64,000 nucleotides of DNA from an uncultured Actinomycetes bacterium (GTDB lineage Bacteria > Actinomycetota > Acidimicrobiia > Acidimicrobiales > RAAP-2). Under the pieces are notes generated by a model. That model ran no database searches and was not told the origin of the DNA. It saw only the letters and a list, made by a program, of their open reading frames with translations. Each line of letters opens with the position of its first letter. Position 1 is the stretch's first letter. The stretch spans positions 62,001-126,000 of the forward strand of contig CAIQGE010000025.1 in NCBI GenBank assembly GCA_903871335.1, written 5' to 3'. A program made the translations under genes and the position numbers. Below, piece by piece: positions 9,320 to 26,169 of this stretch.

Positions 9320-12163
9320 GTGTTTCGTATTGTTTCTAACTCTGCGGCGAGGATCATTGTTGCCGCCGCCGCCATGGTCTCGTTGAGCGCGGTGACCGTA
9401 GCCTCCGTCGCCGGTGCCGCAACGGTCACCGCCAGTTTTACTCCGTCGTCGATGACGGCGGCGGGCGGACTGCTGACTGTGAACTACACCATGCCAACGG
9501 GCGTGAAGAGCTGCGCCATCTCCGTGGCGCCTCCGGGACCGATTGTGCCGACCTGTGTCGTGACGGCGGGCGATCAGCACGCCACCTTTCTCGTACCCCC
9601 GAACACCGGTGGCTCGACCCAGACGTACGCCTTCACTCTGAGCGGAGTCTTTAGCGGAGGTTCCAATATTGGTGGATCGAGCTTCTCAACCTCTCAAAAT
9701 GTGACCGTGTCACCGTCGGCGTCGAACACGTACGTGGCCCTTGGTGATTCGTTGGCCTCCGGCGACGGCAACGGAGGATCCGGGTGGGTGGACTACAGCG
9801 GTGCGGCCTCAGGAACCGGCACGGCAAATAGCACGTGTCACCGTTCCTCGTCGGCCTACCCGAAGCTCGTGAGCTCGTGGCTAGCCGCAACGCCTTCTTT
9901 GTTGTTGCCCTCGTTGAACCTTTCGTTCGTTTCCTGTGCGGGAGCGACCACCACCAACTTGTGGTCGGGAAGTCCGGCACTAAAGGCTGGGTTAACAGGT
10001 GGCGGAGAGAACAACTTCGATAACGGTGAATCGCCGCAGTTGAACGACACCGCGGAGTTAGCGAATGCCCGCGTAGTGACGTTGAGCGTCGGCGGCGATG
10101 ACGTGCGCTATCAGGCAATCGTGGATGCGTGTCTGGCGGTATCGCTAGGCGAAACTCCGGCGAGTTTTGCGCTTGCAAAGATTGTGGCACCCGGTATTGG
10201 CCTTTCCACGTTGGCTTTCTACCGCCAGGGCAAGGCGGTCTGTTCAAAGACGTCGACCGCCCCGGCAGTGAAGAACCTGACGAGCAATATTCAAAAATTG
10301 CAAGCGGTTCTCGTGTCGACCTTCCAGCGTGTGCAGACCGAAGCACCGAAGGCGCACATCTTTGTGACGGGCTATCCAGACTTGCTCCCTAAGACGCCGT
10401 CGGCTGCGAATATCCGCAACGGGTGTGGCGGGATCAGCGGAAGCCTTCTTCCGTTCATTTCGGGAATAGCTCCCTCGCTCAACACGGTCGTTCAAAAAGC
10501 AGCGGCCAGCGCGGGCGTCACGTTCGTGGACCCGAACGCGGGCGCGAATTCATTCCTCGGCACGGGCGGACACACCTTGTGCGGTGCCAACTCGTGGTTC
10601 TTTGGACTCAATACCTCTTCGCACGGCACCGACAACCTGGGCACTTTTTTGCCGACGTCGGTGGGCCAACAACATCTAGCGTTGGCCACGGAAGCGTCCA
10701 TCGATGCGGTTATTACCGCGGCGAATGCGCAGTCCAAGGCTGTGGAGTCCGTGGTCTCTGACGGACATGGTTACTGCGCATTCGTCCAGAGTGGTGCGGT
10801 TAAGTGTTGGGGTCGTGGCGTTGCCGGCGAATTGGGAAATGGGAAGTTCTATCCGACTGGCAATCAAGGTTCGGCGATTCCGGTGACGGTCGTGTCAACC
10901 AGTGGAACGGGTACGTTGACCGATGTGGCCAGCATCGCCAGTAACGGTTCTGGTTTCGGCGAGGGCTACTGCGCGCTCCTCACCTCCGGCGGTGTGGATT
11001 GTTGGGGTTACGGTGGCAACGGCCAACTCGGTAATGGACACACGTACAGCGGATCGTCTGCCGGTTCAGCGGTTCCGGTTCCCGTCGTGGGCACCAACGG
11101 GACGGGAACCTTGTCGGGAGTTTCGAGTTTGGCCAGTGACGGTGGCGGCTACTGCGCGGTTCTGACCTCGGGAGGCGTTGACTGCTGGGGAGAGGGACAA
11201 GTCGGTGAGCTGGGCGACGGCAAGTCGGTGTTGTCCAACATTCCGGTGCCGGTGGTTGATGTGAACGGGTCGGGCACCTTGACGGGCGTCGCCAGTGTGA
11301 CGAGTGACGGTACGACCAGCGGCGAAGGCTACTGCGCACTTCTGACTTCGGGCGGCGTTGACTGCTGGGGATTTGGCGCGAGCGGCCAGCTGGGAAATGG
11401 TTCGGCACTGCCCACAGGAACGCAAAGTTCATCGATTCCGGTGACAGTTGTGGACATCACGGGCAGCGGTTCGCTCAGTGGCGTCACTAGCTTGGTGAGC
11501 GACGGGGGCGGTTACTGCGCCGTTCTCACGACCGGCGGCGTTGACTGTTGGGGCCAGGGACAGGACGGCGAGTTGGGTAATGGGGTCTCCACCGAGACCG
11601 CCACGCCCACACCCGTGTCGAGCCGTACGGGAAGCGGCACGTTGACGGGCGTCGTGAGTGTGGCGAGCGCCGACAACGGCGATGGGTACTGCGCACTGCT
11701 CGTTTCAGGTGGCGTGGACTGCTGGGGTTGGGGTGCTAGCGGACAACTTGGTAACGGTCACTTCTACCCCTGGGGCAACCAAGGGTCCTCGATCCCGGTC
11801 GCGGTCGTGGGTGCGACTGGTTTTGGAACCTTGGGTGGCGTGAGTTCGTTGGCCAGCGATGGCACGGGCTACTGCGCCACGTTGACGTCCGGTGGTGTGA
11901 ATTGTTGGGGAGCAGGATTCTGGGGTCAAACGGGAACGGGAGCGGAGAGCTACTCGGACACCCCACAGAACGTCGTGGCAGTTTCGGGCTCAGGAAATCT
12001 GGGCGGCGTCACGAGTGTCGTGAGCGGCACGGAAGGGTACTGCGCACTTCTCGCCTCTGGAGATCTCAACTGTTGGGGCCGTGGCCTCAACGGTGAATTG
12101 GGCAACGGAGTGTTCTACACGTCGGGTTACACCGGCTCGGCGACACCAGTACTCGTCGAATAG
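9320..12163 (+). CDS. Secreted SGNH-like hydrolase fused to eight RCC1-like repeats
   Basis: The 947-residue protein has a signal peptide (hydrophobic ~12-32, cleavage near AGA), an Ig-like stretch (~35-130), an SGNH/GDSL-like domain (~136-465) and eight RCC1-like units (~480-947). The esterase part has Ser144 in ALGDSLASGDG and the CHRSSSAYP insertion seen in secreted actinobacterial lipases. Block III reads GGDD (258-261) rather than GGND, and the block V histidine position reads FLPT (Leu444) rather than FHPT, so activity is doubtful. Each repeat has GYCA-LxSGGVxCWGxGxxGxLGNG with two conserved cysteines, which may be disulphide-bonded outside the cell. The GTG start follows GGGGG by ~6 nt. 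A strong hairpin terminator follows. Confidence 0.8.
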   Translation: MFRIVSNSAARIIVAAAAMVSLSAVTVASVAGAATVTASFTPSSMTAAGGLLTVNYTMPTGVKSCAISVAPPGPIVPTCVVTAGDQHATFLVPPNTGGSTQTYAFTLSGVFSGGSNIGGSSFSTSQNVTVSPSASNTYVALGDSLASGDGNGGSGWVDYSGAASGTGTANSTCHRSSSAYPKLVSSWLAATPSLLLPSLNLSFVSCAGATTTNLWSGSPALKAGLTGGGENNFDNGESPQLNDTAELANARVVTLSVGGDDVRYQAIVDACLAVSLGETPASFALAKIVAPGIGLSTLAFYRQGKAVCSKTSTAPAVKNLTSNIQKLQAVLVSTFQRVQTEAPKAHIFVTGYPDLLPKTPSAANIRNGCGGISGSLLPFISGIAPSLNTVVQKAAASAGVTFVDPNAGANSFLGTGGHTLCGANSWFFGLNTSSHGTDNLGTFLPTSVGQQHLALATEASIDAVITAANAQSKAVESVVSDGHGYCAFVQSGAVKCWGRGVAGELGNGKFYPTGNQGSAIPVTVVSTSGTGTLTDVASIASNGSGFGEGYCALLTSGGVDCWGYGGNGQLGNGHTYSGSSAGSAVPVPVVGTNGTGTLSGVSSLASDGGGYCAVLTSGGVDCWGEGQVGELGDGKSVLSNIPVPVVDVNGSGTLTGVASVTSDGTTSGEGYCALLTSGGVDCWGFGASGQLGNGSALPTGTQSSSIPVTVVDITGSGSLSGVTSLVSDGGGYCAVLTTGGVDCWGQGQDGELGNGVSTETATPTPVSSRTGSGTLTGVVSVASADNGDGYCALLVSGGVDCWGWGASGQLGNGHFYPWGNQGSSIPVAVVGATGFGTLGGVSSLASDGTGYCATLTSGGVNCWGAGFWGQTGTGAESYSDTPQNVVAVSGSGNLGGVTSVVSGTEGYCALLASGDLNCWGRGLNGELGNGVFYTSGYTGSATPVLVE
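10757..12163 (+). repeat. Eight tandem RCC1-like coding repeats
   Basis: Eight in-frame units of ~56 or ~65 residues lie end to end. From unit 2 on they alternate long and short (2-3, 4-5, 6-7), which suggests duplication of a two-unit block of ~360 bp. Each carries the GYCA...CWG cysteine pair, and the last unit lacks the SGxLxGVxS linker. Confidence 0.8.
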
Positions 12164-13753: not shown

Positions 13754-14030
13754 GATGACTCCTTGCTTGTTCGGAACCCTATCGTCGCCTCGTCACAAGA
13801 TTCCAACATTCGGATTCAGACGTTCGAGTGGGAGCGGGCTGACGTGCGTGAGTCCCTCCGCCGATGATCGCCACCGCGCAGGTGACATCGAATCGCTGAA
13901 AGACGACTCGGGCCGCTGTCACGCCCCGCTCGGGCGCCGAGTCATTGTCCAGTAAATCCACGGTTTTTGATGCATCGCCCTCTAGGCTCGTCATGAAACT
14001 ACGTCTTCAGTGGGCGTCGTGAGGAGAATG

Positions 14031-14915
14031 ATGTCGGACACTTGGCGCTTCGCCCTAATCGCTGTGGGGGCGGCCCTGATCTTGGGCGCCTTCGTGTGGC
14101 GATTCGTGCGGAGTTCCCGAGGCTCCCAGCAGTTGTCTCGCGCCCTGCGAGATCCCGATCCCTTGGTGCGCCGGGCCGCCATTGAAGTCATGAGCGAACG
14201 AGGCATTGGCGACTACGCGTCGTCTCTTCGCCCGCTGGTGAATGCTGAGCCCGACGCGAATGTCCTCGACGCCCTGGCCCTCGCGATTACGAGAAATCAA
14301 TGGGAACCTGCTGATAACCGCAAGTTGGTTGAACTTCGACTCTGGGCGAAGGCGCGAAACGAGGCCGCCGAGATGCGCGACGACACCGTGCCGAAGGAAG
14401 AAGTCGTCGCGGCACCGGCGCTCGACGTCGTGGCAACACCCGTTGCCGTTGTCGCTCCCACACCGACCATTGAACCTGTCGTCCCCGAGACGCCCGTGGC
14501 TCCCGCCCTGATCCCCGTACCCGTGGTGGACACATCGTTGGTAATTGCCAACGCGCAGCGCGAAGCGGACCTGATCGTCGAGCGTGCACGGGCAACCGCC
14601 CGGGCGATCGAGGCCGCCGCACGCGCCGAACGAGTGCAGGTACTTGAGCAGACGTACGCCGAAGTCGCACAGTTGATCGCCGTCAGTCGAGACGGCCACA
14701 ACGCTGTTCTGGCGGACGCGCGTACCCTTCTCGACAAGTTCTTGAGTGGAGAGAGTGATCTTCGCGAAGATCCTCGTACACATTCTGGCGAGATCGAGAT
14801 TCACGAAATTGCTCGTGATGACGTTGATAACGAAGAAGATTCGGATCACGACGAAGAACAGCGGGTCGTGATCGTGATTCGGCAGGAACCGTCACCGAAA
14901 AAGAAGAAGAAGTAA
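14031..14915 (+). CDS. Membrane-anchored HEAT-like/coiled-coil protein (paralogue 1)
   Basis: The 294-residue protein has one N-terminal membrane helix (~8-25), a helical-repeat segment (~35-110; LRDPDPLVRRAAIEVMSERG, VLDALALAI), a Pro/Val-rich linker (~125-175), a likely coiled coil (~180-240; READLIVERARATARAIEAA) and an acidic tail ending PKKKKK. The first ~110 residues resemble the protein at 22957-23334. No enzyme signature is seen, so a scaffold role at the cytoplasmic membrane is a guess. ATG 14031 has AGGAG just upstream; GTG 14010 is in frame but less likely. It is convergent with the exosortase operon. Confidence 0.6.
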   Translation: MSDTWRFALIAVGAALILGAFVWRFVRSSRGSQQLSRALRDPDPLVRRAAIEVMSERGIGDYASSLRPLVNAEPDANVLDALALAITRNQWEPADNRKLVELRLWAKARNEAAEMRDDTVPKEEVVAAPALDVVATPVAVVAPTPTIEPVVPETPVAPALIPVPVVDTSLVIANAQREADLIVERARATARAIEAAARAERVQVLEQTYAEVAQLIAVSRDGHNAVLADARTLLDKFLSGESDLREDPRTHSGEIEIHEIARDDVDNEEDSDHDEEQRVVIVIRQEPSPKKKKK

Positions 14916-14924
14916 CCGGTCGCT

Positions 14925-15608
14925 TCAGGAGCCGATGAGGCCCAGTAATTCGGAGATGGCCTCAACCACGTTGCTCGCTTCGCGCCACGGGGGGATCTCG
15001 CCTTCAGTTGCACGGTATTCTCCCGTGCGTACGCGGTACGCCCTCATGCCGACACCGTGTGCCCCAAGAACGTCTTTGTCAGGACGATCGCCGACGTAGA
15101 CAACATTCGGCGCCTCCAGTCCGAGTGCATCAAGAGCCTGAAGGAATGGCGCGGGTGAGGGCTTGCGAAATTCACGTCCCGCTTGGTCTGACAGAACGAC
15201 GACATCGAAACTGTCAGTGAGACCGAGAGCGGAGAGTTTTGCCATTTGAATTTCCACGTCGCCATCAGTGATGAGACCAATCGGGACATTCGCCCGCAAC
15301 TGGGCGAGTGATTCACGAACGCCCGGCATCAAGTCCAGCGAGACGGGACGGAACGATTTGAACGTGTCCACGAGATCCGCAATCAAAACGCGTGGGGCGA
15401 GTTCGGCCACTGCCCGATCGATGATGCCTCCCTTGTCAGAGCCCAGGTCGCTGAAATACGTCAGCCGCTCTCGCCACCGCGCGGCGTCAACGTCACTGCC
15501 CCTCGCCGCTTCTTCGGCCACGACGTTCCACGCGGCGTCCAAAAAGGTCTCTTGAAGATAGAGCGTGTCGTCCAAATCGAAAACGACGGCTTGTATGGGG
15601 CCACTCAC
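14925..15608 (-). CDS. HAD-superfamily phosphatase
   Basis: The 227-residue protein is a HAD hydrolase: motif I VVFDLDDTLY with the two aspartates, motif II LITDGD, a motif III lysine around GREFRKPSPAPF, and motif IV VYVGDRPDKDVLGAHGVGM. It probably removes phosphate from a sugar phosphate or nucleotide in the same pathway as its neighbours. Its GTG start overlaps the epimerase stop as GTGA; a longer open frame to 16010 runs through wecB and is rejected. It is the last gene of the exosortase operon. Confidence 0.8.
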   Translation of the reverse strand: MSGPIQAVVFDLDDTLYLQETFLDAAWNVVAEEAARGSDVDAARWRERLTYFSDLGSDKGGIIDRAVAELAPRVLIADLVDTFKSFRPVSLDLMPGVRESLAQLRANVPIGLITDGDVEIQMAKLSALGLTDSFDVVVLSDQAGREFRKPSPAPFLQALDALGLEAPNVVYVGDRPDKDVLGAHGVGMRAYRVRTGEYRATEGEIPPWREASNVVEAISELLGLIGS

Positions 15609-16726
15609 GTTGGTCGCCACTGCGTCAGGTCGGGCTCGACGATGGGGAGGAGGGCGAGGACGCCCGGATCCTCCAGTGCGTCGGCAACCTGTTCGGCCGT
15701 TGTTCCATCGCCGTAAGGACACGGTGCCGTCACGATGCGAACGAGTACCTCGGGAGAACTGAAATACGTTGCTAGTTCCATCACGCGTTCGACATTCACA
15801 CCGGACAATGCCGCGAGACCCTCGCTGATGCCCTCCCAGCGCGGCGTTGAGCGTCGCAAGACAATGGCGGGCACACCGAAGAACGCGGCTTCTTCTTGAA
15901 GACCACCTGAATCGGTGACCACCAGTCGACACGTCGCCAACTCGTTCAGCATGTCTTCGTAGGGCAGAGGATCGAGGAGGCGGACGTTCGCTGTTGAAAG
16001 CTCTGTCCACAGATCAGCACTCACGAGACGAGTCTTCGTGCGAGGGTGAACGGGGAACACCACGGTGCCGACTTCCTCGCCGAGCCGACGAATGATCTCG
16101 ACGAGATCGCGCAATCGTTCAGGGTCATCGACGTTGGTGGGTCGGTGCGCGGTAAAGAGGACGCCGTGTCGCTCATCTACGTCTCGACGGTGGAGACCCT
16201 TTCCGACGAGAACGTCAATGACGGGGTTACCCACCACTCGTATTCGCTCGCTGGCGACGCCCTCGTTGATGAGAAACTGGGCGGCGAGGGTCGTGGGCGC
16301 AAAGTGCAGTCGGGCGGTGGCGGCCGCGATCTTCCGGTTGGTTTCCTCAATGGAGGTTTCGTTAAAGCTGCGCAGTCCTGCTTCTAAGTGTGCCACGGGT
16401 GTCTGGAATCGTCGCGCGGCGAGACAGAACAGGGGAACGGTATAGGTATCACCGAGCACCAGGACGAGATCGGGACGTTCGGTGCGAATCACGTCCATGG
16501 CCCGCGTCAAAATAGTGCCCACCCGTTCGGACTCATCCGTTGGCAGCTCCCAGCGAATATTGGGTTGTACACCGAGTTCGTCAAAGAATGTGTCGGTCAG
16601 ATTCGCGTCATAGTGTTGACCGGTGGCCAGAGTCGTGACCTGGTGTCCCCGCGCCGCGAGGGTCACGATCACGGGTGCGAGTTTCACAATTTCGGGACGC
16701 GTCCCGAGCGGTATGAGGATCTTCAT
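15605..16726 (-). CDS. wecB: Non-hydrolysing UDP-N-acetylglucosamine 2-epimerase
   Basis: The 373-residue enzyme matches WecB/MnaA: GTRPEIVKLAPVI at the start, TGQHYDANLTDTFFDELG, VLGDTYTVP, HLEAGLRSFNETSIEETNRKIAAA, FTAHRPTNVDDPERL (HR motif) and TDSGGLQEEAAFFGVPAIVLRRSTPRWEG. It converts UDP-GlcNAc to UDP-ManNAc, a precursor for cell-surface polysaccharide. Within this operon it would supply an amino sugar for a glycan or for decorating a surface protein. Start overlaps the ATP-grasp stop by 4 nt. Confidence 0.93.
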   Translation of the reverse strand: MKILIPLGTRPEIVKLAPVIVTLAARGHQVTTLATGQHYDANLTDTFFDELGVQPNIRWELPTDESERVGTILTRAMDVIRTERPDLVLVLGDTYTVPLFCLAARRFQTPVAHLEAGLRSFNETSIEETNRKIAAATARLHFAPTTLAAQFLINEGVASERIRVVGNPVIDVLVGKGLHRRDVDERHGVLFTAHRPTNVDDPERLRDLVEIIRRLGEEVGTVVFPVHPRTKTRLVSADLWTELSTANVRLLDPLPYEDMLNELATCRLVVTDSGGLQEEAAFFGVPAIVLRRSTPRWEGISEGLAALSGVNVERVMELATYFSSPEVLVRIVTAPCPYGDGTTAEQVADALEDPGVLALLPIVEPDLTQWRPT

Positions 16727-17670
16727 CCTTCGATGACTTCCTCGAAATAACGCAGCATGATCACGCCGCTACGCGAGGTCAGGCGGCCGAGATCAACGGG
16801 TTGTCCGAGCATCACCCCGAGATACTGCCCCACGAGGTCGCACCCCGAAGCCAGCGACAGTGGGAGACCTCCCGAAAAGCGCGGGTTCACCTCGACGAGA
16901 CCTAGTTGGTCGTCATCAAGAAAACCCTGCAAGCAAATGGGACCCGTGAGTCCGACCGCGCGGGCCGTCTCTTCGACGAGCGCATTAATTCCGGCGTGGA
17001 GGAATGTTTCACCTTTCGTCGAAATTCCCGCTTTCGTCTCCGTCCGCCATCGCGGGACGCATCCCCACAATTCCCCGGTGGGAGCAACGAGGCCGTCGGC
17101 CGTAAATTCACGTCCCGGAAGACGGGTTTGCACAATCGGTTCGGGTACGCGTGCGAGAACCCAAGGGAAATCTTTTGGGTCCTCAACTGAGAAGACATCT
17201 CTCGATCCGCGGCCGAATCGCGGTTTGACGATCCACGGACCAGGGACGCCGTCGAATGACAAACCCGTCGCTGGTACGGGAACGGTCGTACCACTCAAGG
17301 TCTGCGCGAAGAGCCATTTGTCGACACAGGTGTCAACGGCGCTCCGACTAGGGAACCAGTGCGCAATTCCCGCTGCGGTAAAAGAGTCCTGAGCGTCCGA
17401 GAGGACCCCCAGCTCTTCGGCGACGGTGGAAATAATCGCGTCGACCCCTCGGTTGTTCGCCGCGTCGATCAATGTTTCCACGAATCCCGGATCCTTTGAC
17501 CGCGGCCCGACGAGGGAGTCATCGGCCAAGCGAAGTCCCACGGCGGACGGGTCGCAATCAACCGCCACGACGCGATGACCGTCCGAACGAAGCCGCCGAA
17601 TGACCGCGACGCCCGCGGGACCTCCGGCGCCGGTGACCAGCACCGTAACGGGCTCAAACGAGTTCGACAT
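16723..17670 (-). CDS. ATP-grasp enzyme, carbamoyl-phosphate synthase-like
   Basis: The 315-residue protein has an N-terminal Rossmann-like pre-ATP-grasp fold (VLVTGAGGPAGVAVIRRL), then ATP-grasp elements: PWIVKPRFGRGSRDVF, PGREFTADGL, and a C-terminal metal-binding LGLVEVNPRFSGGLPLSLASG. Such enzymes in polysaccharide clusters join an amino acid or carboxylate to an amine or sugar; the substrate here is unknown. It lies between exosortase and wecB with a 17-nt overlap into the exosortase gene, so it is translationally coupled. Confidence 0.8.
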   Translation of the reverse strand: MSNSFEPVTVLVTGAGGPAGVAVIRRLRSDGHRVVAVDCDPSAVGLRLADDSLVGPRSKDPGFVETLIDAANNRGVDAIISTVAEELGVLSDAQDSFTAAGIAHWFPSRSAVDTCVDKWLFAQTLSGTTVPVPATGLSFDGVPGPWIVKPRFGRGSRDVFSVEDPKDFPWVLARVPEPIVQTRLPGREFTADGLVAPTGELWGCVPRWRTETKAGISTKGETFLHAGINALVEETARAVGLTGPICLQGFLDDDQLGLVEVNPRFSGGLPLSLASGCDLVGQYLGVMLGQPVDLGRLTSRSGVIMLRYFEEVIEG

Positions 17671-18196
17671 GATTCTCCGTTGTGTTGTCAGCCGGCGACG
17701 TTTTGTCCATGAGCAAGATCAGCATGACCATGAAACCACCGAGTGTGTAGATGAATGTGAAGGTGCTACCCGCCCAGTCGTGGAAGAGAATCAGACTTCC
17801 ACGGCCGAAAAAGATACCGACGCCGATCGACAAGGCGATGCGGACAATATTGCCAAAGATGACCAAACCCACGGCAATGGACGTCGCCATCACTCGTCGA
17901 AGGGGCCGCGAGCGAGGTGCGACAAATCCCATGCAGGTAATTGATAGCGCCGACGCGAGAGACGAACACGACAACGTCACCAGCGCCCGGAAAATCTCAC
18001 CGTGTCGAGGGTAGACATATATGTAATACGGGCGAACGTAGAGAATTCGGTGACCGGCCCCGCAGAGCGTCAAGAGTTCGGCCGACGTCCTTGTTTCCCA
18101 CGCGCGAAATGGGTCTTTAAAGACGACATACAGAACTCCCAGCACCACGAGGAGCGCAATGGTTCGCCAGATGAGTCGAACACTCGAACTGTTCAT
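17654..18196 (-). CDS. Exosortase/archaeosortase-family transpeptidase-like protein
   Basis: This 180-residue protein has about five membrane helices and the three catalytic positions of the exosortase/archaeosortase superfamily: Cys77 in LSCSSLASA, Arg119 in FGNIVRIALS and His139 in LFHDWAGSTF. These enzymes cut substrates with a C-terminal tripartite signal (short motif, membrane helix, Arg cluster), with or without transfer to a glycan or lipid. The ATG overlaps the GT2 stop as ATGA. The divergent surface protein at 20579-22840 ends in such a tail and is the likely client. I cannot assign a named subfamily. It is shorter than proteobacterial exosortases, closer to the single-domain Gram-positive type. 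Confidence 0.75.
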   Translation of the reverse strand: MNSSSVRLIWRTIALLVVLGVLYVVFKDPFRAWETRTSAELLTLCGAGHRILYVRPYYIYVYPRHGEIFRALVTLSCSSLASALSITCMGFVAPRSRPLRRVMATSIAVGLVIFGNIVRIALSIGVGIFFGRGSLILFHDWAGSTFTFIYTLGGFMVMLILLMDKTSPADNTTENHVELV

Positions 18197-19536
18197 GGCG
18201 CGCCCTGGCTGGAGGGGTCGTGGGCGCGACTCGTCTTGACCCAGGTATAGGGGCGTCCGAGCAAACCATCGACCCAGGCTTTCGTGCAGAGCGCGATCGA
18301 GACAAAGAACAGCGGCAGGAAGTAAATCAATGAGAACACCCACCGTCGCGGCGCGCGGCCCAGCAAGAGGCCTCCACCGAGCTCCAAGAGGGGACCAAGA
18401 AAGAGCAAGGTCCACAACACAAAGGCGTTCGCCGCAATGTCGGGATGGGTCACGCCGAACATCCACGGAATGAGGAGTACCAAACCCAGGAAGCTGAAGA
18501 CGGGCATGTGAAACACCAGCAAGAACATGATGGTTTCGACTTTTTCGGACACGGTGAGTCGACGCGACGTGAGTACCTGTTGGCGATAATCGCGCCACAC
18601 CTGCTGGTGTCCTCGCGCCCAGCGATAGCGCTGCCGCCAAAAGCGCGACACGGTGACCACACCCTCTTCAGCGTCGACTGCCGTGACGTCGTAGCGAACA
18701 CGCTGTCCGCTCAGAATCAGTTTCAGGGTGAGATCGGTGTCCTCGGTGACCGTGTCGGGATTCCAACCTCCCACTTCCCGTAATGAACTCGCTCGTACCG
18801 CGCAGTTCGCGCCGCCGTACGCCGGCAAGAGAAAAATCGATTGCCGCCCGTACTCATTCACCAGGTAGCCGGCGAGGTAGTCCATGGCAATGAGCCGAGT
18901 GAGGGGAGAGTCGTCCGGATTGACGATTTCGCATCGACCCTGGACAGCGCCGACGCCGGGGTCTTCGAAGTGTCGTGTGAGACGCCAGACGACGTCACGT
19001 CTCGGTTGGTGATCGGCATCGAAGACGATGATGATTTCGCCCGTCGCCAGCTCTAGTGCGTCGTTCAGCGCCCCGGATTTACCGCCTCCGGCTCCCGGCA
19101 AGCGATGCAGGATTCGCAGAGTGGGTGTCACGGCGGCGAGCGCGTCCAGTTTCGCGGGCGTCTCGTCGTCAGAGCCGTCGTCGATCACGATGACCTGCAG
19201 CCGATTCTCGGGGTAGTCAAAATTCACGAGGCACGATACGAGTGACTCGACGACGGATTCTTCGTTCTTGCAGGGAACCAGCACGGTGACCGAAGGTGTG
19301 AAGGTCGATGAGGAACTCGCAATGGCTAAGTCCGTCGTTGCGGACCGCATCGCGCCGACGGCGAAGATCATGTGGCGCGCAAAAAAGACAATGAAAACAA
19401 CTTCAAGGAAGATGATCAGAATCGAGTTGACCACATTGACGCCGACCAGGGCGACGCCCAGAAATAACGCCCCGACGAACGACACCAGAACCCAAGGTGA
19501 GCCGGAAGGACCTCCGCCATGTTTCGGAGTTCCCAT
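18193..19536 (-). CDS. Membrane family-2 processive glycosyltransferase
   Basis: The 447-residue protein has two N-terminal membrane helices (~15-65), a cytoplasmic GT2 domain (~80-320) and three to four C-terminal helices (~330-430). All processive-GT2 motifs are visible: IDDGSDDE, FDADHQ, TEDTDL and QRYRWARGH (QxxRW). It resembles BcsA/PgaC/HasA-type synthases that polymerise and extrude a polysaccharide at the inner membrane. Immediate coupling to an exosortase recalls the Gram-positive pairing of an exosortase with a GT2 (established for XrtG systems). The ATG at 19536 has only a weak upstream site. Confidence 0.85.
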   Translation of the reverse strand: MGTPKHGGGPSGSPWVLVSFVGALFLGVALVGVNVVNSILIIFLEVVFIVFFARHMIFAVGAMRSATTDLAIASSSSTFTPSVTVLVPCKNEESVVESLVSCLVNFDYPENRLQVIVIDDGSDDETPAKLDALAAVTPTLRILHRLPGAGGGKSGALNDALELATGEIIIVFDADHQPRRDVVWRLTRHFEDPGVGAVQGRCEIVNPDDSPLTRLIAMDYLAGYLVNEYGRQSIFLLPAYGGANCAVRASSLREVGGWNPDTVTEDTDLTLKLILSGQRVRYDVTAVDAEEGVVTVSRFWRQRYRWARGHQQVWRDYRQQVLTSRRLTVSEKVETIMFLLVFHMPVFSFLGLVLLIPWMFGVTHPDIAANAFVLWTLLFLGPLLELGGGLLLGRAPRRWVFSLIYFLPLFFVSIALCTKAWVDGLLGRPYTWVKTSRAHDPSSQGAP

Positions 19537-19599
19537 TGCCGTCAGTTTACCGACCGGCCGGAACGAATTGGTCTTCGTTCGGTACCGAGGTGAGGCGAA

Positions 19600-20259
19600 T
19601 TAGTTGGTGCCGTTGAGGAGCAGAAGTTCCTGCTCGGGAGTCATGCGATGCACGCCAAGGTCAAACTGCATGCGCTCACACACGAAGCCTTCGGCGTGAC
19701 GGAGTCGCGCGTTGAAGCCGCGATAACGCGCCTGCGCCTCAATGGCCTCGAGATCGACCAGTCCATTTCGCTGGACCTGTGATGCGTGGGCTCGGAGAAG
19801 GGCCAGTTTGCCCTCAACGAAACCCTCGACGTCAACAAAGATCGTGGGGGTGAAACCAATCGTGCTCGGAGATTCGTACTGCAGAACACTCGTCGCTCGA
19901 CGGGCAGCTGCCAAGGTCGCTACCGCGGTGGCGCGGTGGTCCTGGTGCGTGTCGCGCGACGCGTGGGTGTAGACGACAGTGGCCTGAGTCTCTCGAAGAA
20001 TGGCCTCGATAGATCCAACGGCCGTACGACCTTCAGGAACGGCACCGTCCTCGAAGTTTCCCCAGTAAAGATTGGCCCTAAGGAGGCGAGCGGCGTCTTC
20101 TTGTTCGTGGGTGCGTGATCGGGCCATCTGAGGACCTTGTTCGCCGGTCGTCATGACCAGCATGGAGACCTCGTGACCACGGGCGACGTGAGCCAGAAGG
20201 GTTGCACCGCAACCCAGCTCAATATCGTCCGGGTGGGCGCCAATTGCCAAGACCCTCAT
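19600..20259 (-). CDS. PIG-L / LmbE-family deacetylase
   Basis: The 219-residue protein carries the zinc motif AHPDDIELGCG and the downstream HxxH (DTHQDHRATA) of PIG-L/LmbE amidohydrolases, which remove acetyl from GlcNAc-containing substrates (MshB, BshB, GPI-related). In front of a GT2/wecB operon it may de-N-acetylate an amino sugar; mycothiol-type chemistry is the alternative. ATG 20259 is preceded by AGAGGCGG; the in-frame extension to 20355 has no supporting site. It is the first gene of the minus-strand operon, 63 nt before GT2. Confidence 0.85.
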   Translation of the reverse strand: MRVLAIGAHPDDIELGCGATLLAHVARGHEVSMLVMTTGEQGPQMARSRTHEQEDAARLLRANLYWGNFEDGAVPEGRTAVGSIEAILRETQATVVYTHASRDTHQDHRATAVATLAAARRATSVLQYESPSTIGFTPTIFVDVEGFVEGKLALLRAHASQVQRNGLVDLEAIEAQARYRGFNARLRHAEGFVCERMQFDLGVHRMTPEQELLLLNGTN

Positions 20260-20578
20260 ATCCGCCTCTTTGTCGAAATTTTCATCAGTTCCTCCGGGCG
20301 ATCTTGAGTCCAACATCGCCCATCCCGTCGACCGCAGCACGCCGACATTGCGCATACTCCGGAGGTAAAAAAATTCTTCTATGACGGAAAAACCACGCTA
20401 CAGGCCTCGTTGTAGCGTGTCAAGGGCATATATCACACGAATATTTGCGTGTGGTTTGACACAGCGTCAATATCTAGATTAATTTTTCACCGTTTCACCC
20501 TGTGCGTAGCGCCACTGCCGTACGGGGACGACTTGGCGGCCCTTCGGACCGTTGCCGTAGAGAAAGTAGTTCTCACCC
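20260..20578. promoter_or_regulatory. Divergent control region of the exosortase locus
   Basis: This 319-nt AT-richer stretch separates the PIG-L operon from the surface-protein gene. It holds a 9-bp inverted repeat with 8-nt loop (CACGCTACA 20394-20402, TGTAGCGTG 20411-20419), an imperfect 20-bp palindrome (20434-20453, arms CACACG and CGTGTG, 8 of 10 pairs) and a candidate promoter just downstream. I see no coding potential in it. Confidence 0.55.
20456..20484 (+). promoter_or_regulatory. Candidate sigma-70-type promoter of the surface-protein gene
   Basis: TTGACA at 20456-20461 is followed after 17 nt by TTAATT at 20479-20484. The -35 is a perfect consensus; the -10 is moderate. It would give a ~90-nt leader before the GTG at 20579. 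The palindrome ending at 20453 abuts the -35, a good place for a regulator. Confidence 0.45.
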
Positions 20579-22840
20579 GTGTTGAAGAAGACCCTGCCTT
20601 TTGGTCGCACCATGATTGGCGCGACCGCCGGACTGCTGATGGTGCTGTCGATCTCGACTCCCGCATTTGCGGATGCGAACGCCACCATCACGAAGTCCGG
20701 CGTCGATGTGACCAACGGTTCCACGAGCGTTGCGAGCGTGGGGGACACGATCAAGTGGACCGTGACGTACGAGAACACGACTGGAAAAGTCGTCAGCGCC
20801 GACATCCAAGACGGCATTGTGGCCCCGAATAGCTACCTCCACGGAACTCTGCAGGTTCCCGCCGGTTGGATTCCGGAATGGTCGACCAACAACGGTTCGA
20901 CATGGTTGACCGCTGAGCCCTCTAATGGAGCCTCCGTCACGAACGTGCGCGCCTACAACACCTTCTTGAGTACGACGGCAACGGGTAACGGAGAGATCTT
21001 TCCGGCGCCGAATGTACCCCTCGCGGCTAGCTTGGCGGAAAGTGGTGGAGACGGTTTCCAGGCCTATTTCACCCCGAATTCAGTGTGTACCACCTTCCAC
21101 GTGGACGGCGTGTTCAACGTGGAGTGTTTCAACAAGACCACGGGTGCCGTTGAGTCCAATAAGGTCCTTTCTTCGTCAATTTCGACACTTGACCGTTCAC
21201 AGCCGGTGCAGGATGTGGCCACGAGCCGCGCGTACTTCCTCGGTTCGATTTCGGGTAGCGACGCCATCGTGTGCGTTGATCTATCGAACGTGTCGGATCC
21301 TTCTCTGTGCAATCCCACTGGATACGTGACCATTGGTTCAACGTCTCCCTCGCCGGACCTGGTCAAAGTGGGCAGCAACGTCTACGCGTGGGATGGTTCG
21401 AAGTTTTATTGCGTGACCACGGCTATGACGTTGTGCGCAGGGCAACCGTACGCTTCGTCGATTGATACCGCGCAGCATGCGTCCGCGATCGTGGCGGGTG
21501 GTTTGATCTACGCGAGCAGCGGCAGCATGTCCAATAACGGCATCAACCAGCAGCAATATCTGACCTGTTTGAATCCGGTCTCGCACGCAATCTGCACGGG
21601 GTGGACCGGAGGAAGTCCCTCGGGATTCAAGGATGTGTCGTCGAGTTTCCCTTCGTCAGGAGCGCTGCAATACGCCGGTTCAAATTTTGTTGTGCCGCAG
21701 ACCAATGCGAGTGGCGTGACGACTGGCGTGTGTACGCACAGCGCTTTCGCGCAGGGAGGCTCCTACGCCGGTAGTCGATGGGCCTGCTTCAACACTGATG
21801 GTTCAAGCAATTCATCCAATGCCAGTGAGCTCGACGCTTTCCACTCGACGCACCTCGGTGTCAACAGTTACGGCTTGAAGGCTGAGATGGGACAGTCGTC
21901 CGGATCAAAAATTTTCTTGGTCTACGCCGCTGACACCAGCAACGTGTCAGGAAATGAATTCGACTGCTTCGACTGGGCTACGGGCACTGGCTGCACCGGT
22001 AGCACCGGCTCAGATGGTTGGAGCGGATGGAGCAATTCGGCGAATCCCTCAGAAGGTCAAATCATGATGCCGGCGTTGTCGCCGTCCAATGACCGTTATT
22101 CCAACACCGCGGGACAAGAAGGCCTCTACGCCGTTGCCGTAGACCCCTATGACCCGGTGTGCTTGTGGACTGATGCCGATAGTGGCCTCATTCGTTCGAT
22201 CAACATTGCGACGGGTGTGGCCGGAACCTGCAAGACGACCGCGACCACCCAAGTTGCTGCGGCACCGACGGCGGTGGCCGGAGGCGCGTACTGCGACAGC
22301 AGCCCGTCGCATGTGTCGTCGTGGAACGAAGTTCGCGTGACCGGAATCTCGAATGCGGACTACTCCCACGCACTCATCACGATCTATGACGCGAATGGTC
22401 AGCCGGTGAGCGGTTTCGAAAACCTGGAGTCGAGCACGGGCGTTGTGGATATCTCCTCAATCCCCTTTAGCGGGGCGAACACCTCGCTGACTGCGAGTGT
22501 CACCCTCGAAGATGTTCCGACCAGTTTGACTTGGCCGGCGGAGTCTCCGGGAGCTGAGATCACCTGGACTGGCGACCCCGTTCAGATTTGCTTTGACACC
22601 AACGTGCTCAACGTCACCCAGACCACAACGTTCACTAATACCGTGCACGAAACGACCACTCCGCAGGGTGACCCCGGTACCACTGACACGACGACGTCGA
22701 ACTCCTTCACGGTGACCACCACGAGTATTGATGCTCCTTTGGCTGGTTCGATTGGTGCGATGATCGTCGCGGTCTTGGCTGCGGGCGCCTTCTTGGTGAT
22801 GCGCGGTCTTCAGAATCGACGTCGCGGCATAAAGGCGTAG
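20579..22840 (+). CDS. Secreted surface protein with C-terminal sorting-like tail
   Basis: The 753-residue protein starts with a signal peptide (MLKK, hydrophobic ~12-28, cleavage near AFA-DA), then a DUF11-like Ig domain (~32-100; SVGDTIKWTVTYENTTGK), a long Cys/Ser/Gly-rich middle with several Cys pairs, a Thr-rich stalk (~680-715), and a tail: SIDAPLAG (716-723), a ~20-residue membrane helix, then QNRRRGIKA. This tripartite end is what exosortase/archaeosortase enzymes recognise; it is not an LPxTG signal. The gene is divergent from the exosortase operon. GTG 20579 and TTG 20582 are both possible starts; upstream AGAAAG is weak. No enzymatic motif is recognised. A hairpin terminator follows. 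Confidence 0.75.
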   Translation: MLKKTLPFGRTMIGATAGLLMVLSISTPAFADANATITKSGVDVTNGSTSVASVGDTIKWTVTYENTTGKVVSADIQDGIVAPNSYLHGTLQVPAGWIPEWSTNNGSTWLTAEPSNGASVTNVRAYNTFLSTTATGNGEIFPAPNVPLAASLAESGGDGFQAYFTPNSVCTTFHVDGVFNVECFNKTTGAVESNKVLSSSISTLDRSQPVQDVATSRAYFLGSISGSDAIVCVDLSNVSDPSLCNPTGYVTIGSTSPSPDLVKVGSNVYAWDGSKFYCVTTAMTLCAGQPYASSIDTAQHASAIVAGGLIYASSGSMSNNGINQQQYLTCLNPVSHAICTGWTGGSPSGFKDVSSSFPSSGALQYAGSNFVVPQTNASGVTTGVCTHSAFAQGGSYAGSRWACFNTDGSSNSSNASELDAFHSTHLGVNSYGLKAEMGQSSGSKIFLVYAADTSNVSGNEFDCFDWATGTGCTGSTGSDGWSGWSNSANPSEGQIMMPALSPSNDRYSNTAGQEGLYAVAVDPYDPVCLWTDADSGLIRSINIATGVAGTCKTTATTQVAAAPTAVAGGAYCDSSPSHVSSWNEVRVTGISNADYSHALITIYDANGQPVSGFENLESSTGVVDISSIPFSGANTSLTASVTLEDVPTSLTWPAESPGAEITWTGDPVQICFDTNVLNVTQTTTFTNTVHETTTPQGDPGTTDTTTSNSFTVTTTSIDAPLAGSIGAMIVAVLAAGAFLVMRGLQNRRRGIKA

Positions 22841-22911: not shown

Positions 22912-22956
22912 GCGTTGGTGTACTCCGAGTGACGTTGCCGTCGGTAAGTTGTGGTG

Positions 22957-23334
22957 ATGTTGTTTCTCATTGGCGCACTGGCAGCCGTTCTGGTCGTGAC
23001 GGTCGGGGTCCGATGGATCGCTAAGAGTCAGCAGCGCCGTCGTGCGTGGGTCCCCGTCGCTCGCTTGGTGAGTGCGCCGTCGCGGGCCTTGCGACAAGAA
23101 GGCGTGTTGCAACTAGGTAGTTTGCCCGTTCGAGAATGGCAGCCGCTCGTTGCGTGGATGATTCGCTCGGAGAAGGACGCCGAGATATTGGATCAGTTGG
23201 CGCTCTGGCTCAGCGATCCCACAACTGTGAAAACTTTCGGTTTTGGTAATTACGTCGACGAACTCTTGTGGGCGCGTGTTCGCACGAGCCCACAGTTGAC
23301 CGTGAGGCTAGAGAGCCAGTCCCCGTCGTCGTAG
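22957..23334 (+). CDS. Small membrane-anchored helical protein (paralogue 2)
   Basis: The 125-residue protein has a single N-terminal membrane helix (~2-20) and a helical domain that aligns by eye with residues ~1-110 of the protein at 14031: shared features are a basic stretch after the helix, a segment ending ExDAxxLDxLAL and a closing LLWAxxR or LRLWAxxR. It lacks the linker, coiled coil and acidic tail of the larger copy. Function is unknown. GTG 22951 and ATG 22957 are both possible starts, without a strong ribosome site. It overlaps the convergent membrane protein gene by 27 nt at the 3' end. Confidence 0.55.
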   Translation: MLFLIGALAAVLVVTVGVRWIAKSQQRRRAWVPVARLVSAPSRALRQEGVLQLGSLPVREWQPLVAWMIRSEKDAEILDQLALWLSDPTTVKTFGFGNYVDELLWARVRTSPQLTVRLESQSPSS

Positions 23335-26052
23335 TTGGGTCGTACGCATTCTCCCGAGTCGGCGCCACGGCAACAGGGCGACCACGATCATGAGTGCCAC
23401 GGTCGCGAGCGAAACGACGATCCCGAGATTTTGCGCTGTTGAAAGTTGGTAGGTGAATTGCACGGTGCGTGACGTCGCGTCGGAGGTGAGGGGGACGTAC
23501 ATGTACCCCGGGCCAGCGAGGTAGATCTCGGTGGGATGGCCGTTGATGGTGGCGTGCCAATCGGGCGTGAGGTTTTCTTTGAGGAGCACTCCGGCGGCAG
23601 AACTGGGGGCGGTCACGGTGATCGGTCCCGTGAGCGGTACGTGCACGCGAGCAGTGGGGCTCGTCACGGGCGGTGTCAGCGCGAGAAGGTCAAGATTGAA
23701 CGTCGCTTCAGCGCTGAGATGCGACACGGCGCTGTGATACGGCAAATTGAGTCCCGACCACGTGATAGCGCCACGCCCAATGGGCAGTTCGGCGAGGACG
23801 ACCTTGTTGTGCGATCGCAACAAGGTGTGGGTACCGGGAGCGAGCGCGATGGCGGTGTCAACGTTCCACACCCCACCTCCCACGTTCGGCGGACTGAACG
23901 CGGCAAGTTGATGGCGAGCGGTGGCAGAGAGCGATGGCGACGGCGAGAAATCCCACGTACTTCCGAGGGCAATACGTCCTTGCAAACTGACCGGGATCGG
24001 CCCACCGGCAGCGCTGATCGCGGCGATCGTTGTTTCGTTGCCCGCCCCCTCGAGGAGTACGTGTCCTCCGTGTGCGGCGTACGCACGAAGAGTTTGGCCA
24101 ACGGCAGCGGGATTGGTGACGGGCGTCGTGCCGTAGAGCGCCACTGCGCTAAAGCGTTCCAGCGTCCGAAGCGAGTAACTATCGAGGGGACGGTCGCCCT
24201 CCAGAGGGATGACCGACGTGGGGCCACGGCCCGCGAGCCCGGTTTGACGAAGGAAGTAGTCGTAGGTGTTGTGATTGGGCGAAATCACCAGGAGTGTAGG
24301 CGCGGATGACGCCGACGCAATGGGCTGCGCCTCGTTGTACTGCACCAATTGGTAGGGAGCCGCTCCCGTGGGCGAACCCACACTCGAGAAGACTTTCGGG
24401 GCGTGCAAATACGCCTGCTGATCACTCAGCCCGGGTCCGGCGTACATCCACTTGATCGCCCACCACTGAAAGAAATATTCTCGTTCCGCTAACGAGAGAT
24501 GCGAATCGCCCAGTGAGGTTTCGAGCCAGTATTGCCAATCACTGTGAAGATTCTGTTGATTGATGTATCCGCGTATCTGCGGGGTGGTCGTCTCGGCATT
24601 GATCCAGCTCGTGACATCATCACTGAGTCCTCCGATGCGGTAGTCCTGTGTGCCGTGCGCTTCAGGCGGTAAGAGAGCGGCGAGGGCGCGTTGTTCGGAG
24701 GTGTTGCCATTGAGAGCGGGAGGCAAGAGGAATACCGTCCCCACGATCAGCCACGCCGAAAGTCCCAGAACGACAACGTCCAGGATCGCGCCGGCGAGGG
24801 GAGGGACGGCCCGCTCCAGGGAAGCGAGGCCCATTCCGATGAGTGCCGCGGCGCTCAGGGCCAGAAACACCAGAAGCTGAGCAGGTTTCATACTCGACAA
24901 ATTGGCATTGCTGCTTGGACTCAGGTCCGGGAGCGAATAGAGCACGACGCATACGGGCACGATCAAAAGGACCAGCGCGACACGCCACGCGTCAAGGCCG
25001 TCCGCCACGCGGCCTTTTCGAAAGTCCTGCCGTGCGTCCGCGAAAATAATGACCAACGACACGATGGCGAGTGGCAGGGTCAGAAACGCCAGCCCCATCA
25101 TGGCGGAGGCGTGGTAACCAAGCAGGATGTTGAGTCCGATCGGCGGATTGTGCACCAAAGTAAAGGCGTTGACAGGATCTTCTAAGTAACCAGGTGTCGG
25201 GACGGCGACTTGAGGCACGTAGAAGAATGCAACGAGCCCGCCAATCGCCACCAGCGCGATGCCCGCGGCGCGACAGCGGTCGCCCAGGGGCTGGTCGGGT
25301 ACGAGCAGGATCACCCCGAGAGCCGACAGAAGGGCGACGACCCCGGCTTCTTGGTGCGAGAGGAGCGCGAGCGCGCACGCAATGATGACTCCGATGAGTC
25401 GAAATCGACCCGGACGCTGGGCGTAGAACGCGCCGAGGGCCAGCGTGAGCGCCGCGCAGGCGATCGCCATGAGTCGTGCGTATTCGCCCTCGAGCAGCGC
25501 CTGCTGCCACAGAGCGGGCGTCGCGAGCAGGACCAATCCGCCCACGACCCCGCCCACGCGTGAGCGCGTCACGAGGCGCACCAAGACGTACATTGATCCG
25601 GCGGTGACGAGGGTGAATACCACCGTCAGGGACACCATGGTGCTCGCGAGACTCTTGCCACTGAGATGGGCCAGACCGAGGACCAAGAGGTGGTACGCCG
25701 GTCCGTATAAACCTGGTATTCCCTGGGTCCCTCCGTACCACGCCGAGTTCCACGCGATGTGGGGGAAGGTCTTTTCTAAGAGAACGACGTAACTAAGGTG
25801 TCCGTAGTCGTCGTATCCCTTCGGGAATCCACGAAACGCACCCGTTCGCCAGCCAATCCACGCGGCGATCACCGCCACGATCAACAGGCCAGCAATATCC
25901 TCGAGCCAGGTTGAGCGACGCTGAGTTCCCGATGATCGCTTCTGCTGATCATCGCGTCGCAGCCACGCGCGCAGTTCGCGCGGCGACGACCATCCGGGGT
26001 TGGCCGTCGCGGGCGGTGCGCCCTCGGACGGGTCCTGCTCGGTTGTCGTCAC
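23308..26052 (-). CDS. Large multi-pass membrane protein, GT-C / PTPS-related type
   Basis: The 914-residue protein has a cytoplasmic N-terminus (~1-50), about 11-13 membrane helices (~55-450), a large extracytoplasmic domain (~450-870) and a last helix near the C-terminus (~880-900) followed by RRLGRMRTTQLRRRG. The first loop (FPKGYDDYGHLSYV) carries paired acidic residues as in GT-C glycosyltransferases; the type is often labelled 6-pyruvoyl-tetrahydropterin synthase-related membrane protein. It probably acts on lipid-linked sugars, unproven. GTG 26052 is preferred because GTGAGGG lies ~8 nt upstream; an in-frame GTG at 26085 has no site. Confidence 0.6.
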   Translation of the reverse strand: MTTTEQDPSEGAPPATANPGWSSPRELRAWLRRDDQQKRSSGTQRRSTWLEDIAGLLIVAVIAAWIGWRTGAFRGFPKGYDDYGHLSYVVLLEKTFPHIAWNSAWYGGTQGIPGLYGPAYHLLVLGLAHLSGKSLASTMVSLTVVFTLVTAGSMYVLVRLVTRSRVGGVVGGLVLLATPALWQQALLEGEYARLMAIACAALTLALGAFYAQRPGRFRLIGVIIACALALLSHQEAGVVALLSALGVILLVPDQPLGDRCRAAGIALVAIGGLVAFFYVPQVAVPTPGYLEDPVNAFTLVHNPPIGLNILLGYHASAMMGLAFLTLPLAIVSLVIIFADARQDFRKGRVADGLDAWRVALVLLIVPVCVVLYSLPDLSPSSNANLSSMKPAQLLVFLALSAAALIGMGLASLERAVPPLAGAILDVVVLGLSAWLIVGTVFLLPPALNGNTSEQRALAALLPPEAHGTQDYRIGGLSDDVTSWINAETTTPQIRGYINQQNLHSDWQYWLETSLGDSHLSLAEREYFFQWWAIKWMYAGPGLSDQQAYLHAPKVFSSVGSPTGAAPYQLVQYNEAQPIASASSAPTLLVISPNHNTYDYFLRQTGLAGRGPTSVIPLEGDRPLDSYSLRTLERFSAVALYGTTPVTNPAAVGQTLRAYAAHGGHVLLEGAGNETTIAAISAAGGPIPVSLQGRIALGSTWDFSPSPSLSATARHQLAAFSPPNVGGGVWNVDTAIALAPGTHTLLRSHNKVVLAELPIGRGAITWSGLNLPYHSAVSHLSAEATFNLDLLALTPPVTSPTARVHVPLTGPITVTAPSSAAGVLLKENLTPDWHATINGHPTEIYLAGPGYMYVPLTSDATSRTVQFTYQLSTAQNLGIVVSLATVALMIVVALLPWRRLGRMRTTQLRRRGLAL

Positions 26053-26169
26053 GTCGATGCCCTCACTGAAAAGACGCGACGGCACGCGCCGAACATCGTC
26101 TGGTCATTGTGAATAGTACTGACTGTGGGTTTTCGGAACGATGACGGTCGGCTCAATCACCCAACTTCG

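Follow-up and report, generated by a model that had tools for sequence, protein, structure and literature searches.

Exosortases are thought to act much as sortases do, with a cysteine forming a thioester with the protein and then passing it to an amine, and for the archaeosortase ArtA this amine has been proposed to be a lipid made by the products of linked genes (PMC7157517). In the PEP-CTERM/EpsH system, an exosortase associated with polysaccharide genes processes proteins that end in a C-terminal motif, a transmembrane (TM) helix, and a basic end (PMC1569441). In type IX secretion, the C terminus of the cargo is amide bonded to a 2-N-seryl or 2-N-glycyl amino sugar, for which deacetylation is followed by aminoacylation, and the authors of that work speculated that exosortase acceptors may resemble this linking sugar (PMC7468200). 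Here, we analyzed a 64,000-nucleotide stretch from an uncultured Acidimicrobiales bacterium (contig CAIQGE010000025.1, positions 62,001 to 126,000; the whole stretch is called the window, and all coordinates of its features are relative to it), in which six minus-strand genes, in the order PIG-L deacetylase, family 2 glycosyltransferase (GT2), exosortase, ATP-grasp ligase, WecB, and HAD phosphatase, are read divergently from a gene for a secreted protein with a C-terminal sorting tail (the client). We propose, with chances that we judge to be about even, that they represent a dedicated protein-sorting and conjugation module in which the C terminus of the client is passed to an acceptor that the operon produces, an amino-acylated amino sugar.

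Judged by bit scores, the nearest known systems are the XrtP/XrtS-type short exosortases with a GT2, rather than XrtG. The XrtP, XrtR, and XrtS systems (NF012139, NF012138, NF033767, and NF053846) have in common with the module a short exosortase (about 155 to 180 amino acids [aa]) and surface clients with C-terminal tails; a GT2 gene adjoins the exosortase gene in XrtP, and choice-of-anchor P clients occur in the new module too. However, module exosortases score far under the cut-offs of those subfamilies. One XrtP-type locus from the same taxonomic order (L019:3686-5747) carries an XrtP-like exosortase paired with an XrtP-associated glycosyltransferase (glycosyltransferase 529 bits, cut-off 520) and a nearby protein ending in LPIAGG, a TM helix, and RRR, but it is without PIG-L, HEAT-like, ATP-grasp, WecB, and HAD genes. 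The likeness to XrtG-type systems drawn in the original prediction, which had been made from the letters of the window, holds insofar as exosortase and GT2 genes stand side by side in Gram-positive bacteria; the window proteins, however, score 16.6 bits against 102.75 for XrtG and 75.8 against 364 bits for its glycosyltransferase TIGR03111 (glycosyltransferase cut-off, 363.95). To our knowledge, no such pathway genes or clients have been recognized for XrtG.

The remaining known systems differ in other ways. Unlike PEP-CTERM/EpsH, which can have dozens of clients, the module has one to a few; its motif is different, its envelope is Gram-positive, and it has a dedicated sugar-modifying operon and gene fusions. 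ArtA with PssA/PssD belongs to a homologous superfamily, and its linked genes are likewise proposed to make the amine acceptor (PMC7157517), although that acceptor is a lipid (archaetidylethanolamine), whereas a sugar is proposed here. Type IX PorU with the Wbp and Vim proteins resembles the proposed module in deacetylating an amino sugar, aminoacylating the amine, and transpeptidating the cargo C terminus (PMC7468200), but the parts are nonhomologous: a gingipain-like PorU, the CE4 deacetylase VimE, and the acyltransferase VimA instead of an exosortase, PIG-L, and an ATP-grasp ligase. We found no description of the module in the open literature, most subscription journals being outside the coverage of that search.

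Identity of the exosortase

The 180-aa protein encoded in the window is a member of the exosortase superfamily, and the system is an unnamed variant with its own client signal, HEAT adaptor, and ligase fusion. The scores of the protein exceed the cut-offs of TIGR04178 (37.2 against 23 bits) and PF09721 (27.5 against 25.7 bits), and the three residues that the original prediction had singled out, Cys77, Arg119, and His139, are invariant in a family alignment of 44 sequences, as are Glu34, Asn116, and Gly127. The protein falls below the cut-off of every named subfamily scored, XrtP, XrtR, XrtS, and XrtG included (XrtS, 37.2 bits, cut-off 145; XrtR, 35 bits, cut-off 150; XrtP, cut-off 200, was not among the listed matches), and seven actinomycete relatives and other module exosortases are also far below the XrtP, XrtR, and XrtS cut-offs. 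A divergent XrtS was considered as an identity and, judged on scores alone, is unsupported, the cut-offs being missed; XrtS exceeded its cut-off in 0 of 397 genomes of the phylum.

In the AlphaFold model (mean predicted local distance difference test score, 92.8), the first helix is long, a beta hairpin region lies on the outer side, another, short helix starts just after Cys77, and Arg119 and His139 are borne by two long helices. From this model and the fusions described below, both termini are predicted to face the cytoplasm, with the catalytic residues on the outer half and a basic loop around Arg95 inside. No sequence relative with a solved structure was found, and a Foldseek search of the model against the PDB gave nothing significant.

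A conserved block with exosortase-ligase fusions

Statements on whole genomes rest on searches of genome contigs. Since the window exosortase is too divergent for nucleotide-pattern searching (used alone against genome contigs, it gave no match), a GT2 alignment was used for the scan, which yielded 80 named loci in genera including Aciditerrimonas, Geodermatophilus, Blastococcus, Modestobacter, Actinoplanes, Micromonospora, Pseudonocardia, Catenulispora, and Kitasatospora; a scan of viral contigs with GT2 gave no match. The conservation of the gene neighborhood across Acidimicrobiia that the original prediction had proposed to examine is borne out: the block recurs in other members of the genus of the window and in other families of the class. 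It is also found in another class of the phylum, and the system is not confined to the lineage of the window.

Among 85 distinct loci, counted after duplicate removal and mostly fetched via GT2, GT2 is present in 85, the exosortase in 82, a HEAT-like module in 80, ATP-grasp in 80, PIG-L in 78, WecB in 72, and HAD in 69. All seven parts occur together in 60 of the 85, and a contig edge cuts many of the remaining loci. In a reverse check, all exosortase matches from the class search that were strong (E < 1e-27) also lay within the block. The order exosortase-HEAT-ATP-grasp-WecB-HAD is near constant in complete loci, the positions of GT2 and PIG-L being variable. Occurrence is patchy, with TIGR04178 passed in 9 of 148 genomes of the order, some of these having other exosortase types.

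Within the genus of the window, there are two deeply separate versions of the module, one represented by L011, L012, L013, and L015 and the other by the window and L014; one version has an exosortase-HEAT-ATP-grasp fusion, and the other has split genes. Two such versions in one genus suggest transfer or differential loss. A few matches were set aside: one (G055, L010/L016) is a false match that lies below the cut-off in a permease-type gene context, and two class-level matches (G184 and G463, L042 and L043) represent other exosortases or weak matches without the block. The public record for L138 (same contig as G035:C225) is titled Acidobacteria bacterium G2_25, yet its assembly groups in the actinobacterial genus of the window, and it is probably a misnamed metagenome bin.

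The HEAT-like module is the part that the original prediction overlooked. In most relatives, it lies between the exosortase and the ATP-grasp ligase, whereas in the window it takes the form of two small membrane-anchored genes that flank the unit. The larger of these is a displaced member of the block, which in relatives lies between, or is fused with, the exosortase and ATP-grasp. Both HEAT-like genes are part of the unit, which is larger than six genes plus the client.

Exosortase, HEAT, and ATP-grasp are encoded in one uninterrupted reading frame in 23 loci, exosortase and HEAT are fused in 24 further loci, and HEAT and ATP-grasp are fused in 15 loci. The linker RAEQDRxGRHTAxRPxxW, which follows the last exosortase helix, is kept between the genus of the window and Micromonosporaceae; because the linker is conserved across families, the fusions are real and not annotation accidents. 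In the window, where the genes are separate, the ATP-grasp gene overlaps the exosortase gene by 17 bp. The fusions would put the ligase at the cytoplasmic face of the membrane, beside the exosortase, and this physical fusion of exosortase and ligase is the strongest new argument for the mechanism proposed below. We know of no ligase fusion for ArtA.

The fusions also bear on a different account, in which the exosortase sorts the client to an ordinary membrane or wall amine (e.g., an aminolipid) while the pathway makes an exopolysaccharide that is bound noncovalently by the released or anchored client, as in the original PEP-CTERM picture. Exosortases generally lie near exopolysaccharide genes, and exopolysaccharide production was unaffected by EpsH mutation (PMC1569441); moreover, the GT2 belongs to the secreting type of synthase, and beta-sandwich or propeller-like client domains could bind glycans. 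However, fusion of the exosortase to ATP-grasp in 23 loci and to HEAT in 24 more is hard to explain if the product of the pathway is unrelated to the exosortase, and almost all complete loci keep the deacetylase and the ligase together with the exosortase. We regard this account as unlikely, though of real weight.

Enzymes of the sugar-modifying pathway

Against NCBIfam, the GT2 scores 130 bits for PgaC (cut-off 422) and 99 bits for glyco_with_XrtP, both under the equivalog cut-offs, and is a relative of PgaC/IcaA and of the XrtP-associated glycosyltransferase. The PIG-L protein fails the equivalog cut-offs of BshB1, BshB2, MshB, and Mca (best score, 90.8 versus 182.5 bits). Its relationship to the BshB/MshB deacetylases, together with a set of glycosyltransferase, deacetylase, ligase, and phosphatase that recalls thiol-cofactor pathways, could be read to mean that the pathway makes a small amino-sugar cofactor like mycothiol or bacillithiol and that the exosortase is a protease that releases the client. 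These missed cut-offs speak against such a reading, as does the nature of the GT2, which is a membrane synthase, and a cofactor gives no reason for the fixed linkage to exosortase and clients; of all the alternatives weighed here, we give this one the least credence.

Clients and sorting tails

A secreted protein with a C-terminal tail composed of a Pro-Gly motif, a TM helix, and a basic end is encoded in or beside the operon in most loci, so that the co-occurrence of tail-bearing proteins with the exosortase in related genomes, to which the original prediction had pointed as a check, is indeed found. In Geodermatophilaceae and Micromonosporaceae, the tail has the form C...[LM]P[AE]xGNG, TM, RRR; the forms in Acidimicrobiia relatives include VPVGTWG, LPIGAIGG, and LPVDPLG, and that of the window is PLAGSIG. 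Tail profiles gave 97 matches near the exosortase in 73 loci against 5 mostly weak ones farther off, counts that include duplicate contigs and a few weak or non-coding-frame near matches and that come from searched lengths that differ. In ten actinomycete genomes searched whole, each genome had one or two strong tail matches (E < 1e-13), 13 in all, of which 12 were at the cluster. The thirteenth lies 38 kb from the cluster (L160, in the Geodermatophilus obscurus genome of L101) and is an exception to strict adjacency. In Aciditerrimonas ferrireducens (the genome of L077), VPVGAVGG-type tails gave at least six matches spread over the genome. In some species, the module can probably serve a number of clients, and certain genomes encode more than one.

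Among the clients, the type seen most often is a small beta-sandwich domain with two cysteines and ~95 residues, for which no Pfam or PDB relative was found, a Foldseek search of its model against the PDB giving nothing significant. The same tail occurs on other bodies, among them choice-of-anchor P domains, fibronectin-like repeats, and a propeller-like protein. Because it is common to unrelated bodies that adjoin one conserved enzyme, the tail resembles a sorting signal.

The window client has 753 residues, a signal peptide, and many paired cysteines, which suggest a beta propeller. Its predicted tripartite tail stands: it is the sole fit among 971 window open reading frames (ORFs) to a rule of Pro-x-Gly motif, TM helix, and basic end that was written after the tails were seen, and it ranks first, weakly (E 0.009), among the same ORFs with a tail profile from which the window and its close relatives had been left out. 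No PEP-CTERM model matched the window client. That it is a single client holds at the locus but probably not genome-wide, since a second candidate with the tail DLPSGGLTG...RRR is encoded outside the cluster (C1:16280-16978); this candidate occurs in 2 of the 148 genomes of the order, exactly the two that have the window-type exosortase.

Homologs of the window client were found, among the 148 genomes, only in its own genome, in the sister genome G006 (72% identity, same locus layout), and in G019 of the same genus, which has three distant homologs with LAFTG-type sortase tails and no exosortase match. The G019 homologs (at L055:7414-11180 and L056:7555-10305) represent a natural swap of sorting signal, and within the client family a sortase signal appears to have been replaced by an exosortase-type signal or the reverse. 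In G006, another pair of secreted proteins (L014:4897-5742 and L215:1486-2322) has similar C-terminal tails and N-terminal starts that are related; the gene for the first is absent from the matching place in the window.

The LAFTG tails of the only other detected homologs, four sortase-family matches in the window genome, and a PLAGS motif that can be read as a damaged PLAFTGS raise the prospect that a class E-type sortase anchors the window client and that the exosortase acts on something else. Yet the client has no LPXTG or LAXTG motif (its tail reads APLAGSIG) and matches no NCBIfam LPXTG or LAVTG model, its tail fits the exosortase-linked class in the held-out test, and the G006 ortholog has an exosortase-type tail beside the same cluster, whereas the LAFTG-bearing G019 is without an exosortase match. 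We therefore consider anchoring by a sortase very improbable.

The body of the client raises a further alternative, in which it would receive an O- or N-linked glycan from the pathway and the exosortase would merely trim the tail. A Thr-rich stretch precedes the tail of the window client, and an adjoining gene, kept in G006, encodes a DUF6541 membrane glycosyltransferase-like protein (23308-26085). However, many clients have no Thr-rich stretch, being domains of ~100 residues followed directly by the tail, and the ATP-grasp-exosortase fusion points to a reaction at the C terminus. Glycosylation of the body seems to us improbable, if slightly less so than anchoring by a sortase.

Proposed mechanism

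In the proposed sorting and conjugation module, the client would be exported by Sec and retained by its C-terminal TM tail. Cys77 of the exosortase would then attack the Pro-x-Gly motif just outside the membrane to give a thioester, and the new C terminus of the client would be transferred to an amine on a sugar-based acceptor supplied by the operon. To make this acceptor, WecB would provide a UDP-N-acetylhexosamine epimer; PIG-L would strip the N-acetyl group and expose the amine; the ATP-grasp ligase, held by HEAT at the membrane beside the exosortase, would add an amino acid (or a similar acyl group) to this amine; GT2 would build and/or export the glycan; and HAD would remove a phosphate. 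The product would be a surface protein that bears an amino-acylated amino-sugar glycan as its covalent cap and anchor. Computation supports the identity of the enzyme, its catalytic residues, the conservation of the operon, the fusions, and the link between tail and enzyme; we infer the cleavage, the direction of transfer, the order of the pathway steps, the acyl group, and the acceptor, which could be polymeric, a lipid-linked oligosaccharide, or only one sugar.

The claim that the operon makes the acceptor, with the client joined to an amino-sugar glycan as the original prediction had suggested, gains strength from the conserved pathway genes and from the exosortase-HEAT-ATP-grasp fusions, and the chemistry would follow the steps given above. 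Several observations weigh against the proposed module. The GT2 resembles poly-GlcNAc synthases at a distant score level only, and sequence leaves the substrates of PIG-L, ATP-grasp, and HAD undefined. The tail of the window client fits its class weakly (9.9 bits, held out), some loci have no recognizable client, partly because of contig ends, and the genome of the window also encodes the sortases mentioned above.

A more specific form of the proposal, which we advance tentatively as a prospect well short of even, is a covalently coupled protein-sugar ligation machine of a hitherto undescribed exosortase class widespread in Actinomycetota, in which a cytoplasmic ATP-grasp ligase, fused to the transmembrane transpeptidase or docked on it via HEAT, would aminoacylate a deacetylated amino sugar at the inner face, GT2 would present the product outward, and the exosortase would cap it with a dedicated surface protein. 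If this is true, it would be the first exosortase with an acceptor pathway co-encoded and within the same polypeptide.

Implications

The acceptor of exosortases has not been established generally, and an exosortase that comes with a fixed sugar-modifying gene set and is frequently fused to a putative amino acid ligase means that it can be sought directly. As the module is present in cultured strains (Geodermatophilus, Blastococcus, Actinoplanes, Micromonospora, Catenulispora, and Aciditerrimonas), the question of the acceptor is testable, and many of the cultured strains have a small client of roughly 10 kDa that is suited to intact-mass analysis. The C-terminal sorting signal, which is unnamed in the libraries searched, is now usable for annotation. 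Further, the client family is a natural example of surface proteins from one family that bear a sortase signal in one genome and, in other genomes, a signal of the exosortase type.

Locus layout and neighboring genes

An ORF check placed the six minus-strand genes and the divergent client gene at the coordinates originally given for them (Table 1). The description of the six genes as coupled applies to the five from GT2 to HAD, which are linked by short overlaps; the PIG-L gene stands apart, 63 bp upstream of GT2. The divergent intergenic region is presumed to be a shared regulatory region of the client and the operon.

Table 1. Features of the exosortase locus in the window, with the evidence for each
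Feature	Coordinates	Strand	Evidence
Membrane-anchored HEAT-like protein	14010..14915	+	HEAT-module profile 141.6 bits (profile seeded from same protein); PF13646 just under cut-off
HAD-family phosphatase	14925..15608	-	PF00702, PF13419; likely GTG start 15608 overlapping WecB stop
WecB, nonhydrolyzing UDP-GlcNAc 2-epimerase	15605..16726	-	TIGR00236 271 bits (cut-off 210); motifs
ATP-grasp ligase, PylC-like N-terminal domain	16723..17670	-	PF15632, PF02655, PF21360 above cut-off
Exosortase-family transmembrane cysteine transpeptidase, 180 aa	17654..18196	-	TIGR04178, PF09721, invariant residues, AlphaFold
Membrane GT2 glycosyltransferase, processive type	18193..19536	-	PF00535/PF13641; motifs DDG, DAD, TED, QxxRW intact
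PIG-L (LmbE) N-deacetylase, cytoplasmic	19600..20259	-	PF02585 94.5 bits; motifs HPDD, H.DH; likely start ATG 20259
Divergent intergenic region between client and operon, 319 bp	20260..20578	.	Gene starts
Client, 753-aa secreted Cys-pair-rich (propeller-like) protein	20579..22840	+	Signal peptide; tail PLAGSIG, TM, RRR
C-terminal sorting tail of client	22697..22837	+	Tail profiles
Small membrane protein, second HEAT-like module	22951..23334	+	HEAT-module profile 23.6 bits; adjoins client in G006 too

Beyond these features, the large membrane protein encoded at 23308-26085 on the minus strand, which has DUF6541/PTPS-related (GT-C-like) similarity and is a neighbor of the client also in G006 (58% identity), is a candidate for an additional glycosyltransferase of the unit. 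On the other side of the locus, the product of a plus-strand gene at 9320-12163 is a secreted protein of 947 aa; it has an RCC1-type propeller and a GDSL-like stretch but no C-terminal sorting tail.

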